From contig NZ_JACJPI010000058.1 in NCBI RefSeq assembly GCF_014695975.1, positions 186,001-250,000 on the forward strand: a DNA stretch of 64,000 nucleotides. Reading direction: 5' to 3'. Made by a program: the position numbers and the translations under genes. The stretch comes from Leptolyngbya sp. FACHB-321. Lineage in GTDB: Bacteria; Cyanobacteriota; Cyanobacteriia; Leptolyngbyales; Leptolyngbyaceae. Positions within the stretch are counted from its first letter, which is position 1. Every line of letters starts with the position of its first letter. The notes below the pieces were generated by a model. That model had not been told where the DNA came from. It was given only the letters and a program-made list of their open reading frames with translations, and ran no database searches. Shown here piece by piece: positions 35,254-42,771 of this stretch.

Positions 35254-37869
35254 ATGATAAGCATTAATCGAAATACCCTGAGTTATGGTGCAACGGCATT
35301 CATTGTTGCCCTCCTACTCCTGCTGGTCTTTCCGGGATGGTGGAACGCCCTTTTAGCAGTCAACGGGTTTATTCCTCATGGGCATTGCTATTTGTGGAAG
35401 CCAGGGCTGGTATGGCTCCATGTCCTTTCAGATTCGTTTATTGCCCTTGCCTATGTTGCTATTTCGGCAACCCTGGCTTACCTGGTTTACAAGACTCGCC
35501 GAGAGATTCCCTTTCACTGGATGTTTTTGGCGTTTGGCTCCTTCATTATTGCTTGTGCCAGTACCCACTTCATGGATGTGTGGACGTTATGGCATCCGAC
35601 TTATTGGCTTTCGGGAGTGTTAAAGGTGATTACGGCGATCGCCTCTGTCACTACAGCCTTTATCCTTCCCTTTCTCGTTCCCCAAGCGTTAGCTCTGGTC
35701 GAGTCTGCCAAGCTTTCAGAAGAACGGCGATCGCATCTGGAAGCGGCTAACCATAAGCTAGAGGCAATGAACGAGCAACTTAAGGAGGTTGACCAACTCA
35801 AGACGCAGTTTTTCGCCAATGTTAGTCACGAACTCCGAACGCCGCTTGCCCTAATTCTGGGACCTATTGAGAAACTGCTCAAACATGGAGCACTGAGCCA
35901 GGAGCACCAGCATGATTTAAAGATTGTCGATCGTAATGCTCGCCTATTACTCAAGCAAGTCAATGATCTCCTTAATGTCTCTAAGTTGGAGGCAGGTAAG
36001 ATGGCACTACACTCTACGCAAGTTGATCTGGCTCAACTGGTGCGCCTTACTGCCGCGAACTTTGATGGCTTGGCACAAGAAAAGAACATTGCCTTAACTA
36101 TTGATGCACCAGAATCTTTGCCTGCTGAAATTGATGCCGCAAAAGTACAGCGAATTCTACTTAACTTGATTTCCAACGCGTTCAAATTTACACCTAATGG
36201 TGGCATCATTTCTTGCACGCTGGAAAGCAATCAAGCTGAGATGAATGCTGCCGACGGTGGTTCCACCAACTTGCCAGTCCAGGCCGATCGAGCCATTCTT
36301 TCTGTTCGCGATAGCGGTCCGGGTGTTTCGGCTGCTTTACGGGAAACGATCTTTGAGCGGTTTAGCCAGGGGGAGGGGGGCACAACCCGTCGCTTTGGCG
36401 GCACTGGTTTAGGCTTGGCGATCGCAAAAGAATTCGCCGAGCTACAAGGCGGCACCATTGGTATAAGTGATGCACCCGAAGGCGGCGCACAATTCACTGT
36501 TGAGTTACCTTTGCTAATGCCGTCTGGCAGCAGCATTACTGCTTCAACCACTGAGCTGAATCAGGGTGAAGAGATCGCAAACCAATTAGTCGAAGAACTC
36601 CGGACGGTTGCGCCAATCGACTCCAAGCTTCAGGCACCAGCAGTCGGCAAACCGTTAGTGCTGGTAGTGGAAGACAATCTAGAAATGAATCAGTTCATCA
36701 CCTCAACGTTGGCATCTGAGTATTGCACTGCTACTGCTGTCAATGGACAAGAGGGCTTGGAGCAGGCGATCGCGCTCAAGCCTGATTTAATCCTGAGTGA
36801 TGTGATGATGCCTTACCTCAGCGGTGCTCAGCTTGTGCAACAGATTCGGACTTACCCAGAGTTGGATACGACTCCAGTTGTGATGCTCACTGCCAAAGCT
36901 GATGATGAACTGCGGGTGCAACTGTTGCGCCAGGGCGCTCAAGACTACCTGATGAAACCCTTTTCGGTTGAGGAGTTACAGGCGCGAGTTGGTAATTTAA
37001 TCGCAGTGAAGCGAGTGCGTGACTTGTTGCAACAAGAGCTTGCCAGCCAGAGTCACAGTTTAGAAGCGCTGGTAGAAGAGGTGAGCTTGCGGCGACGAGA
37101 GCTACAAGTTGCCCTGAATGCGCTTCAACATCAGGCTGAGGAACTGGAGCAAGCCAACCGTTTGAAGGACGAGTTTTTAGCGATCGTCTCTCATGAACTT
37201 CGTACGCCCTTAAACTCTATTCTGGGCTGGGCGGAAGCATTGCGGACTCACCAGTTCGATGCAATCATTACTGCCCGTGCGTTAGAAACGATCGAGCGCA
37301 ATGCCCGCTTGCAGACTCAACTGATTGAGAATCTGCTCGACATCTCCCGTCTACTGCGTGGAAAGCTGCTGCTGCAAAAGCACCCTATTCCTCTACGCGC
37401 AGTGGTTGCAGCGGCGATTCAAACGGTGCAACCAAGCGCTACAGCTAAGTCAATCCGCTTAGATGCTTACTTAGATGAGACGGTAGGGCAAGTCTCTGGT
37501 GACGGCGATCGTCTGCGACAGTTAATAGAAAACCTGCTCTCGAATGCGATCAAATTCACTCCACAAGGTGGGCAGGTTGAGATCCGGTTGGCGCAGCAGA
37601 ACAATGAGGCGGTGATTCAAGTTAGCGACACGGGACAAGGAATTCGGGCAGAAGCTCTCCCCTACATCTTCGACTACTTCCGCCAAGCGGATAGTTCAAC
37701 CACGCGTCAACATGGAGGTTTGGGCTTAGGGCTAGCAATCGTACGGCAACTGGTCGAGTTACATAATGGTGATATTCAGGTAGAGAGTCAGGGCGAAGGA
37801 CAGGGCGCTACCTTTACAGTTGTTCTGCCATTAACCACAACCACAGCCCCACCTGTCTATTTGCGTTGA
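35254..37869 (+). CDS. Ethylene-receptor-like double histidine kinase (ETR1-type sensor, HisKA-HATPase-REC-HisKA-HATPase)
   Basis: 871 residues. Residues 12-145 contain an extra first helix and the three-helix ethylene-binding domain. The residues required in ETR1 are all present: Asp60 and Tyr67 (as D25/Y32), and Cys101 and His105 (Cu ligands C65/H69) in [10 protein letters not shown]. Two kinase modules follow. The first has H191 (NVSHELRTP) with HATPase to about 420; then a receiver with D515 (LSDVMMP) and MKP lysine; then a second HisKA with H646 (IVSHELRTP) and HATPase to about 860. Synechocystis Slr1212 is the known cyanobacterial ethylene receptor. No GAF or PAS lies between sensor and kinase. 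It converges with the next hybrid kinase gene. Confidence 0.92.
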
Positions 37870-37980: not shown

Positions 37981-40900
37981 CTAAGCTGATTGACTAAGAC
38001 TTGTGATCGTTGCAACGAGTTCAGTTGGATCGATCGGCTTACTAAGATGGCGCTGGAATCCGGCAGCAAGAGCCTTCTGCTGGTTTATTTCCCCTGCATA
38101 GGCGGTAAGGGCGATTGCCTTTGGTAACAGGTTACTGGCAGCAAGCGGCTCTCCTTTCTCTGCAAATTGAGCGATCACGTGCTGCATCAGCGTATAGCCA
38201 TCCATCATAGGCATCCCGATATCACTGATCAGCACATCAACCTCTGTCTTCTTTAATGCCTCCAGTGCTTCTACAGCAGATGCGGCTGAAACAACCATTG
38301 CACCTGCATCCTCCAGGATAAAAATTACTAACTCACGGGCATCAGTTTCATCATCTACCACCAACACTCGAACACCTTCTAAAGGATGTGAGGCAACATC
38401 GGCAGGCTGAAGGCTCTTTGTCTCACTATTTACCTGTCTAGCTTGATCCTTCATTAGCGGTAGGTGGACCGTAAACGTGGTTCCCTGCCCTTCGCCGGAG
38501 CTTTCTACATGAACCGTACCGCCATGCAGTTCAACCAATTGCCGTACGATCGCCAAACCCAGGCCCAAGCCACCAAACTGACGAGTGGTTTTACTGTCTG
38601 CTTGACGAAAGCGATCGAAGATATAAGGAAAAAACTCTGGTGTGATGCCTTTGCCAGTGTCGGTGACAGTGATTTGAGCATAAGAGTGATGAGTGGATGG
38701 CTGATCTACACTCCCACCCACCCAATTCTCCACGTTCCCATGCTCGACCTGCTCTAACCGCACCTCGACTCGTCCGCCGTCTGGGGTAAATTTGATCGCA
38801 TTCGCTAGCAGGTTCCAAACTACTTGCTGTAAACGGCTGGCATCCCCTGCAACGTATCCCACCTTTGGGGCAAAGTAGGTCTGAATCTGCATTGCCTTCG
38901 CTTCTGCCGCTAGGCGCACAGTCTCCATTGCGGCTTCAATCGTAAACTTCAAGTCTACTGGAGCCACATCAAGGATGAGTTTGCCACGTAAAATGCGGGA
39001 AACATCCAGTAAATCTTCAATGAGCTGCGTTTGCAATTTGGCATTGCGTTCAATTGTTTGCAAGCCACGAGCCAGAGTGGCAGGGTCGTGCTGCTGTTTT
39101 TGTAAGAGCGTTGACCAGCCCAAAATGGGATTAAGCGGAGTACGCAATTCGTGGGAGAGCACTGCCAAAAATTCATCTTTCACCCGGCTTGCCTGTTCTG
39201 CCTCTGCTCTAGCACTGCGCTCTGCCTCGTACAATTGAGCGCGGAAGATTGCCTGAGCACACTGACGGCTAAGAGTGAGCATAAACTCGCGATCGTCCTG
39301 GCTGAGTTGCTTGAACTGTTTGAAGGAAAGCGACAGCCCTCCCACCGCTCTGCCGTCAACCATTAAGGGCAGCGAAATCCATGCCTGGAAGGGAAGACTC
39401 TTGTAGATTTCTGCTAAATGAGGATAGCGGGCAAGGCGTTCCGCTAGAGGCTCTGACCAAACAGGCTGCTTATTTCGTACTGCGTCCGCTAAGGGAAAGG
39501 GTGCAGTGAGGGGAAATTGCCGATGGCTTTCTACTGGATTTACGGCATACCCGACTGCTTGCACAATTTCCAAAACGGTTCCATCCGGGCTTAGAAGTGC
39601 CATGAGTGCTGCATCTGCTTCTAGAGCCGCAGTGCTTTGCTCTACAATCACCGCCGCTACTTGAACGGGTGTCAGAGATTCTGAGAGGGCGGCTGTCACC
39701 ATTTGTAAGCGAGTCGTGCGATCAGCAGCGGTTTCAGCCGCTTGCTTTGCCTGTTGAGCGGTGTGATAAAGGTACGCGTTGTCAATGGCGATCGCGGCTT
39801 GACGCGCCAAATCTTGAGCTAGAGCAAGATCTGTGAGGCTATAGCGGCGATTTGATTCAGTAAACACAAAAGAAATGCTGCCTAAAACTCGTCCACGCGC
39901 TTGCAGTGGGGTAATAATGCACGACCTTAAGCCGACACTTTGCAAGATTGCTAGATACTCAGGATTCAATACAGTCGCCGTGAGTTGTTCATCGGTAATG
40001 TCGATCGCAATTTCACTTTGCCCGCTTTTCATGACCTGAGAGATGCCATACCCATCATCTAAGTGCCTGGGGAAGCGTTGTGCTAGTTCCCAACCCAACT
40101 GCACCTTATCGGGATTGGCATGCGCAACTGCAACACGACTAATGGTGCCATCATCATTCAATAAATCTACAGAACACCAGTCTGCGAAATAAGGTACGAC
40201 TAACTTGGCAACGCTTTGAAGCGTTTGTTCATAATCCAATGACGATGCCAGTGCTGTACTGACATCAACCAAAAAAGCCGATCGTCGCTGCTCCGTTTCA
40301 GCTTCCAGACGAGCCGTTTGTTCCTGAGTTTGCTCTCGAATTAGTTGGGCACGTTCCTCTGCAAGGCTTAAGCGAACGGCTTCTGCTTGTTTGCGATCGG
40401 TGATGTCGTGCATAACCACCACTGCGCCCTGTTTATTGCCTTGAGCATCAGCAATGCTTTGCCCACTGCTGAGCAAGGTTCGCGTCATTCCTGCTTTGGG
40501 GGCAATCACCATCTCAACGTTGGCAACGGTTTCTCCCTGTAAGGCACGAAACAGCGGAATCTCGTCTTTAGGCATCCGCGTTTTGCCGTCCGGCAGATAC
40601 AAGTCATAATATTCTGCCCACTGGTCAGGGGGGAGCGGTTGCTCTGGTAGTCCATGAAATCTTCGTGCTGACCGATTAAAGAGCGTTAAAAGTCCATCGG
40701 CGTTACAGGCGACAATACCTGCCTGCACGTTATCTAGCAACACCCGCAGCATTTCTTGTTCTTTTTGCAGGGCAGCTTCTGCTTGCTGGCGATCGACAAT
40801 TTCTAGTTGAAGGCGTTGGTTTACTTTAGACAATGCAGTCGTTCGTTGTTCTACCTGGCGCTGCAACTCTTGCTGCACTTGTTGCCGGGCAACCTCCGCT

Positions 40901-41907
40901 TGTTGGCGCTCCAATTCAGTAGCAATCCGCAGCGCAAAGATAGTCAGTAGAGACTCTACAAGCTGAAGATTGATTAAAGGTTTGCTGTCCATGATGCCCA
41001 GCAGCCCAAGCGGTGTACCTGCCGAGTCAAAGAATGGAATTGCCGCGTAGCTCTCTACCCTGAAAGGGGCTAGCAGCGGCGCTTGAGGAAACTGCGCTTG
41101 CACGCCATCGGGATAGCAACACAACTTTTGTTTTTGAATCACCTGCCAGCAAGGTGTGTCGCGCAGTAAGTACTCAAAGTTGGCAATGATTTGACCGTTG
41201 GCGCAGGCAGCGATCGTCTTAATAGCATCCCGGTTTGCCCCATCCACCAGACCAATGTAGGTGTAATCTATCCCCAAAGTTTTGGTGAAATGTTGTACCA
41301 GAGCCGAGAAGAAAGCTTCACCCGTGGCAACAGAAACCCCCTGCGTGATTTCTAACAATGCTGTATCAAGCTGGGCGACTTTGCGAGCTGCCAAGCGTAG
41401 CTCTAGTTCATCCATCACCATTGCAGCAAGATCGGACAACACAGCTTGCTGCTCGTCAGTTAACGTCGTGCGTGGTTGAGTATCGAACAAACAAAGGGTA
41501 CCGAGGTTAAAGCCATCCTGAGTTAGTAAGGGTGCACCTGCATAAAACCGTAGACCAGGTTCATTCTGCACAAAGGGGTTGCAAAGGAGGCGATCGTCCT
41601 GGCGGGTATCGGGAATAACTAAAACGTCGCTGGAATACAGTGTCAGACTGCAAATAGTGGCATCTCGCTGCACTTCTTGGATATCAAAACCGTAAGCCGA
41701 CTTGAACCAACCCCGCGACTCATCAACTAAGGAAACGAGCACGATCGGCATCCCAAACAAGCGTGCAGCTAAAGCAGTAATGCGATCAAATGCTGCTTCC
41801 GGCGGTGTATCAAGAATGTTGTACCGTCGCAATGCTTTTAAGCGTTCCGCTTCATGAGTAGGCAAAGGAACCGAGGGTAACGGAGGTTCTGGTAGTGGTT
41901 GAGTCAT
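37981..41907 (-). CDS. Multi-GAF/PAS hybrid sensor histidine kinase
   Basis: 1308 residues, no transmembrane helices, so cytoplasmic. Order: GAF (about 35-175, RRYNILDTPPEAAFDRITALA), second GAF (190-340), coiled coil (340-390), PAS (395-515), third GAF (555-730, SLDYEQTLQSVAKLVVPYFADWCSVD), fourth GAF (745-915), HisKA with [16 protein letters not shown], HATPase with NLLANAIKFTP, DTGKGITPEF and [10 protein letters not shown], and a C-terminal receiver with ISDIGMPMMDGY and SKP. None of the GAF domains shows an obvious bilin-attachment Cys. Kinase and receiver share high similarity with those of the 4844-8071 gene, suggesting a common ancestor. ATG 41907 is chosen over TTG 41922. Confidence 0.93.
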   Translation of the reverse strand: MTQPLPEPPLPSVPLPTHEAERLKALRRYNILDTPPEAAFDRITALAARLFGMPIVLVSLVDESRGWFKSAYGFDIQEVQRDATICSLTLYSSDVLVIPDTRQDDRLLCNPFVQNEPGLRFYAGAPLLTQDGFNLGTLCLFDTQPRTTLTDEQQAVLSDLAAMVMDELELRLAARKVAQLDTALLEITQGVSVATGEAFFSALVQHFTKTLGIDYTYIGLVDGANRDAIKTIAACANGQIIANFEYLLRDTPCWQVIQKQKLCCYPDGVQAQFPQAPLLAPFRVESYAAIPFFDSAGTPLGLLGIMDSKPLINLQLVESLLTIFALRIATELERQQAEVARQQVQQELQRQVEQRTTALSKVNQRLQLEIVDRQQAEAALQKEQEMLRVLLDNVQAGIVACNADGLLTLFNRSARRFHGLPEQPLPPDQWAEYYDLYLPDGKTRMPKDEIPLFRALQGETVANVEMVIAPKAGMTRTLLSSGQSIADAQGNKQGAVVVMHDITDRKQAEAVRLSLAEERAQLIREQTQEQTARLEAETEQRRSAFLVDVSTALASSLDYEQTLQSVAKLVVPYFADWCSVDLLNDDGTISRVAVAHANPDKVQLGWELAQRFPRHLDDGYGISQVMKSGQSEIAIDITDEQLTATVLNPEYLAILQSVGLRSCIITPLQARGRVLGSISFVFTESNRRYSLTDLALAQDLARQAAIAIDNAYLYHTAQQAKQAAETAADRTTRLQMVTAALSESLTPVQVAAVIVEQSTAALEADAALMALLSPDGTVLEIVQAVGYAVNPVESHRQFPLTAPFPLADAVRNKQPVWSEPLAERLARYPHLAEIYKSLPFQAWISLPLMVDGRAVGGLSLSFKQFKQLSQDDREFMLTLSRQCAQAIFRAQLYEAERSARAEAEQASRVKDEFLAVLSHELRTPLNPILGWSTLLQKQQHDPATLARGLQTIERNAKLQTQLIEDLLDVSRILRGKLILDVAPVDLKFTIEAAMETVRLAAEAKAMQIQTYFAPKVGYVAGDASRLQQVVWNLLANAIKFTPDGGRVEVRLEQVEHGNVENWVGGSVDQPSTHHSYAQITVTDTGKGITPEFFPYIFDRFRQADSKTTRQFGGLGLGLAIVRQLVELHGGTVHVESSGEGQGTTFTVHLPLMKDQARQVNSETKSLQPADVASHPLEGVRVLVVDDETDARELVIFILEDAGAMVVSAASAVEALEALKKTEVDVLISDIGMPMMDGYTLMQHVIAQFAEKGEPLAASNLLPKAIALTAYAGEINQQKALAAGFQRHLSKPIDPTELVATITSLSQSA

Positions 41908-42771
41908 GAATCGGATTAGCAAGCAACAATAGCTAACGGTTAGAAATAAGAGCAGACATCAATCCTAGCCAGTTTCTTTTGTTAAGGAAGCGTGCATTGT
42001 GCTTAATGACGTGCTTACCCTGCGTTATGCTTCTAGCTCTACAGGTCTTGCAAGTGACGTTACCGCAGGGTGCTAACTGCCTACTGGCTTGCTCCTGGTT
42101 AGGCACAGATCGTAAGCAGCAGATCTATAAATGGAACGTGTGACATTGGTAGATGAGACAATGCAACGAAGCTAGAGGTAAAAGTGCAGCCGTTGGTGTT
42201 GAAGCCGACAGCTAGTGTTGGAACCGATCTTACGATCTTTGGAGTTGTCGGTTCTTACGCTATTTGGCTGACTCAGGTTTTGGAATACCCTGAAACGTAA
42301 TATCTATACGAGCACCATGAGCAATCAAGCCCATTTTCACTAAGTGAGTATGAACCCGTCTAGCCTGAGATGCGACAGGCGAAGCATAAACTGTCACCAC
42401 ACGTAACGATCGCTGTACAGGCGATCGAAACGGTGTCTATTTCAAAAATGCTAAACCGATGCTGAAGCTCGGCAACGGATATTGTAAGTTGCGATCGGTT
42501 CAAGCCAGACTCTTACTGGGCTTGGTACAAGCACGTTGCCTTACGCAGACTCGATCGCGCAGCGAAAAACTAGTCCAGCTATGACAACGCTCTAGCGGTT
42601 GAACCGACTGTTGAAGAGCTTGGACCAATTGCAGTAACGCTTTTAATCCCCTGAGTTTGCTGGAAGCAGCGTCAGCAAGATATGTCAAGGCGAAATACAG
42701 CTATAAGCCTAAGCTGTTTGAACTAAACAACTTAGGCTTACAACCAGATAAAAATAACGATCGTAAAAAGA
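41908..42771. other. Intergenic region containing degraded coding sequence
   Basis: 864 bp upstream of the large kinase gene and downstream of the tRNA. Between 42260 and about 42690 the minus strand looks coding, but in changing frames (listed separately). The rest (41908-42259) shows no gene. Confidence 0.45.
42260..42690 (-). pseudogene. Possible decayed gene of unknown family
   Basis: The minus strand gives protein-like translations in successive frames, each closed by a stop. Near 42520-42688: LKALLQLVQALQQSVQPLER. Near 42400-42480: LTISVAELQHRFSIFEIDTV. Near 42260-42436: LRVVTVYASPVASQARRVHT and, further on, GARIDITFQGIPKPES before TAG. The last part has the V.VYASPV.SQA..V...L...G pattern that recalls a SPOR-like module. 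No single frame has a good start. I read it as a frameshifted remnant, with low certainty. Confidence 0.35.

Follow-up and report, generated by a model that had tools for sequence, protein, structure and literature searches.

Ethylene binding by ETR1 of Arabidopsis (AtETR1) requires seven residues, namely D25, Y32, I35, P36, I62, C65 and H69, as listed in two reports (PMC6682694, PMC11819568), and P36 is likewise named as essential in a third (PMC6586836); for P36 these reports draw on earlier mutagenesis, which they cite. The three-helix membrane sensor of ETR1 is followed by a GAF domain, a histidine kinase and a C-terminal receiver (EBD-GAF-HK-REC). Sensors of this type are also carried by bacterial histidine kinases, including SynEtr1 (Slr1212, UirS) of Synechocystis, with a cyanobacteriochrome before its kinase (EBD-cyanobacteriochrome-HK), GeiEtr1 and GeiEtr2 of Geitlerinema, which have all seven binding residues (PMC6682694), and AzoEtr1 of Azospirillum brasilense, whose gene adjoins that of a stand-alone receiver (PMC11819568). 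TodS of Pseudomonas putida, a soluble protein with a PAS sensor before each of its kinases, represents the transmitter-receiver-transmitter (TRT) kinases, and TodS/TodT is the studied case, in which phosphate passes from the first kinase (HK1) to the receiver, to the second kinase (HK2) and then to a separate regulator (PMC4321377, PMC3018481). Loci of the TRT-R type are a recognised phosphorelay geometry (PMC3018481), and since two transmitters were found in 51 of the 4650 hybrid kinases surveyed there, an output of this kind is rare but known. The gene described here would join an ETR1-type sensor, whose ligand is most simply ethylene, to a TodS-type serial relay, a reading that we hold with slightly more confidence than doubt, judging from sequence comparison and from the analogy with TodS.

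The gene was found in a 64,000-nucleotide stretch of the Leptolyngbya sp. FACHB-321 genome (contig NZ_JACJPI010000058.1, positions 186,001 to 250,000), hereafter the window, in whose numbering all positions of the gene are given. An open reading frame with an ATG start at 35254..37869 (+) encodes 871 amino acids, and its full-length homologues are 62-82% identical to it. Pfam places an ETR1_N domain (PF25487) at residues 52-148 (35407..35697), with a score of 121 bits against a curated cut-off of 27 and a match to profile positions 2-97 of 97. It is followed, all on the plus strand, by a first HisKA domain at residues 183-248 (35800..35997) with the phospho-acceptor His192 in the motif SHELRTP, a first HATPase domain at residues ~294-420 (36133..36513), a receiver at residues 469-579 (36658..36990) with the acidic pair E473/D474, the acceptor D516 and K568, a second HisKA domain at residues ~639-703 (37168..37362) with the phospho-acceptor His647, and a second HATPase domain at residues 749-861 (37498..37836). 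The N, G1 and G2 boxes are intact in both HATPase domains; the kinase and receiver assignments also draw on orthologue comparison, and those of the first HATPase and second HisKA domains on local profiles. The reading frame and Pfam therefore agree with a preliminary description of this DNA, made from its letters alone, on the position of the gene and on its domain order of sensor, HisKA-HATPase, receiver, HisKA-HATPase.

Between the third membrane helix and the first HisKA domain lies a helical linker of 34 residues (35698..35799) without a PAS or GAF domain, and Pfam found no match to either domain anywhere in the 871-residue protein. The presence or absence of PAS and GAF domains was judged from Pfam runs only; the local PAS and GAF profiles used in our wide survey are rough, with both over-calls and under-calls. 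The preliminary description had pointed to this direct connection of sensor and kinase and to an output unlike that of ETR1 or Slr1212, and both points are borne out by Pfam, although the former feature is not unique, a paralogue in the same genome (L058) likewise having neither domain by Pfam. The protein differs from ETR1 in having no GAF domain and in the location of its receiver between two kinases, and from SynEtr1 and GeiEtr1/2, which have GAF, PAS or cyanobacteriochrome domains and one kinase, in having none of these and two kinases; where the photoreceptor SynEtr1/UirS has a cyanobacteriochrome GAF, Pfam leaves only the 34-residue linker. AzoEtr1, also a bacterial ETR1-type receptor, differs in its PAS domain, its one kinase and its full set of seven residues. 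The protein stands apart from the TodS family proper as well, having no PAS match by Pfam and a membrane-embedded ETR1_N sensor. In the AlphaFold2 model (mean pLDDT 87.7), helices at residues 50-81, 88-113 and 117-181 correspond to three membrane helices running into the kinase. When the sensor model was used in a fold search of solved structures, nothing matched at E <= 0.001, and a sequence search for a solved structure of any sensor relative returned none.

Two features precede the sensor domain and distinguish the protein from ETR1, both being common to other cyanobacterial receptors. The first is an extra hydrophobic helix at residues 10-33 (35281..35352), modelled by AlphaFold2 as helices 6-25 and 27-34, and the second is a PHGHC motif at residues 41-45 (35374..35388). 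In an alignment of 128 bacterial sensor domains, Cys45 of this motif is invariant (128/128) and His42 nearly so; a single N-terminal cysteine may serve dimerisation (PMC6682694).

We aligned the sensor with an ETR1 reference sequence, in which the seven positions were verified by count. The equivalents of the seven residues are D60 (35431..35433), Y67 (35452..35454), I70, S71 (35464..35466), I98, C101 (35554..35556) and H105 (35566..35568). Cys101 and His105 align with Cys65, a copper ligand, and His69 of the copper site, to which Asp60, the counterpart of Asp25, also belongs; the spacing from Asp to Tyr (7) and from Cys to His (4) is that of ETR1, as the preliminary description had stated for these four residues, and the Tyr-to-Cys spacing is 34 versus 33 in ETR1, owing to one additional loop residue. 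The copper-site Asp, Cys and His and the Tyr are invariant among the orthologues. However, its claim of a complete set of required residues was wrong, since six of the seven are kept and the position of P36, essential in ETR1 (PMC6586836), is occupied by Ser71 (TCG), as in every orthologue. The alignment thus supports an ETR1-type sensor domain with conserved copper-site residues, and because the copper site is among the residues left unchanged, ethylene binding is plausible, if unproved.

The serine is a property of a lineage. Among 107 aligned rows including ETR1, the motif reads DYIPICH in 70 and DYISICH in 22, and in the alignment of 128 sequences (A2) the P36 position holds Pro in 91 and Ser in 33. 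In a tree computed without the P36 column, 31 of the Ser sequences, including the protein of the window, form one clade (SH-aLRT 99), and 91 of the 97 bacterial sequences outside it have Pro. A kinase-receiver-kinase output is present in, or consistent with the record of, 27 of the 31 members; the others comprise two GAF-kinase-triple-receiver proteins, one PAS-kinase and one truncated record. Two Ser-type relatives, at L116:2022-5183 (+) and L182:8737-12642 (+), have a GAF domain, one kinase and three receivers in series.

These data bear on the strongest alternative, namely, that the copper site has lost ethylene binding and serves a different small ligand (some other gas or alkene, or else copper status itself), in a re-shaped pocket with the relay unchanged, which we regard as possible and yet less probable than the ethylene reading. 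It is favoured by the requirement for P36 in ETR1 (PMC6586836) and by the presence of Ser71 in all 31 members of the clade while the third codon base varies freely (TCA/TCC/TCG/TCT); Pro was never regained, though it is one transition away. This codon pattern would point only weakly to selection on the serine, because the clade represents one historical event, and a change may also become fixed within one clade by neutral processes. Side chains at positions 68, 72, 75, 93, 130 and 133 are also smaller in the Ser clade than in Pro-type domains, and since several residues near the site in the sequence are smaller there, the ligand may differ; we take these bulky-to-small changes as a lead for a re-shaped pocket. 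On the other hand, the copper-site residues and the equivalents of I35, I62 and S98 are kept in nearly all members, and a small residue at the P36 position may be tolerated in this background. To our knowledge, P36S itself has never been assayed. A wider form of this alternative, in which a whole lineage of ETR1-type copper sensors was re-tuned to a non-ethylene ligand and given its own kinase-receiver-kinase relay and a dedicated receiver, seems to us rather unlikely, though it would fit the sequence pattern. The protein would be an atypical ethylene receptor, or else it would sense a different small molecule. If ethylene is bound, the seven-residue rule is too stringent a predictor of ethylene receptors in bacteria; otherwise, the ETR1-type domain family has ligands beyond ethylene. 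The clade thereby offers a natural test of P36, with the copper site untouched and one essential residue swapped throughout.

By its domain order the output would be a TRT kinase as in TodS, with HisKA-HATPase, receiver and HisKA-HATPase in a single chain and the catalytic residues intact; among 22 orthologues His192, Asp516, Lys568, His647 and the N, G1 and G2 boxes are kept. The second kinase belongs to a large paralogous family with at least 11 other copies in the same genome at 49-62% identity, which suggests that a kinase end widespread in cyanobacteria was added to a hybrid kinase. A stand-alone receiver of ~130 residues lies upstream of the kinase gene and in the same orientation at 11 orthologue loci, a few tens to ~800 bases from the kinase frame, so that these loci resemble a TRT-R set, and also the AzoEtr1 locus with its neighbouring receiver gene (PMC11819568). 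The neighbouring receivers are 70-86% identical to one another while the remaining neighbours differ between loci, and apart from the stand-alone receiver no conserved neighbouring genes were found at the orthologue loci. In the class-wide sample the receiver is adjacent in 10 of 15 kinase-bearing genomes, versus 1 of 35 and 3 of 75 for Pro-type sensor genes used as a control in the same search. This receiver is likely the fourth member of the relay; it has no output domain, unlike the DNA-binding TodT. The output of the Ser clade would then be a complete relay with a nameable fourth member. Roughly half of the orthologue loci whose upstream sequence is long enough have no receiver, and none stands beside the gene in the window, where tblastn also gave no match to a decayed receiver upstream; a true orthologue of the partner receiver was not found in this genome, the best candidate being 62% identical and unlinked.

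Because the TRT order is that of TodS and a receiver gene lies beside many orthologues, a serial His-Asp-His-Asp relay appears likelier than phosphorylation of the receiver from either side, which the preliminary description had envisaged. In that scheme two independent kinases would phosphorylate the internal receiver from both sides, making it an integrator or sink instead of a relay step. The scheme is possible in principle, the two kinase modules and the receiver being catalytically intact, and the lack of an adjacent receiver gene in the window agrees with it, but TodS, the studied protein of the same order, runs serially (PMC4321377) and many orthologues have a conserved separate receiver beside them; we therefore consider it unlikely.

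Under the ethylene-and-serial-relay reading, Asp60, Cys101 and His105 would hold Cu(I), to which a small hydrophobic ligand would bind within the membrane, the simplest candidate being ethylene; both steps are suggested by conservation. Binding would alter the helix that leads directly into the first HisKA domain and so change autophosphorylation of His192. By analogy with TodS, the phosphate would then be transferred to the internal receiver (Asp516), next to the second kinase (His647) and finally to a separate response regulator. This last component would be the upstream stand-alone receiver in many relatives, and in this genome it would have to be an unlinked one.

Within the protein, conservation is highest in the sensor. 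Over 22 orthologues its mean pairwise identity is 82% and 50 of its 97 positions are invariant, whereas the kinase and receiver domains reach 65-78% and the linker preceding the receiver 30%; the sensor is under selection. That it merely anchors the protein in the membrane or dimerises it and binds no ligand, a reading favoured by the loss of one essential residue (P36), is very improbable, because its conservation, copper-site residues included, exceeds that of every other part of the protein, for which an anchor would have no need.

We found full-length homologues with the same domain order, at 62-82% identity, in ~24 cyanobacterial genomes, both relatives of its own family and members of other cyanobacterial families, and the same core order in two Verrucomicrobia. 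An assembly chimera or a chance fusion was also considered and is ruled out by the recurrence of the full-length order in these ~24 genomes. In the class-wide sample a full-length copy is present in 14 of 390 genomes, with a split copy in one further genome, and the six other species of the same genus have none (0/6). Named genomes, scanned in addition, contributed Filamentous cyanobacterium CCP2, Myxacorys, Pantanalinema, several Leptolyngbya, Phormidium tenue, Nodosilinea, Symplocastrum, Coleofasciculus, Microseira and Planktothrix, and yielded variants with PAS or GAF domains between the receiver and the second kinase. Since ETR1_N occurs widely in cyanobacteria (45 of the 146 genomes sampled across the phylum, with up to nine or more copies per genome and six in this one), there is nothing exceptional about the sensor type in this phylum, and the unusual part is the output. 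No description of this subfamily was found among the open-access papers searched.

Several individual loci are also worth recording. In Cyanobacteria bacterium RM1_2_2 (L164/L074, contig JAAUQT010000114.1) the orthologue is split within the receiver into frames of 519 and 396 residues, which may reflect gene decay or a fault in the assembly. The convergent neighbour of the gene in the window, at 37981-41922 (-), encodes a multi-sensor hybrid kinase of 1313 residues with GAF and PAS regions, whose kinase is ~62% identical to the second kinase described here; the pairing is not conserved elsewhere. Two further ETR1_N kinases of the same genome lie head to head at L061:4149-6794 (-) and L061:7608-11081 (+), and in one of them the position of Tyr32 is occupied by Ser (DSIPICH).
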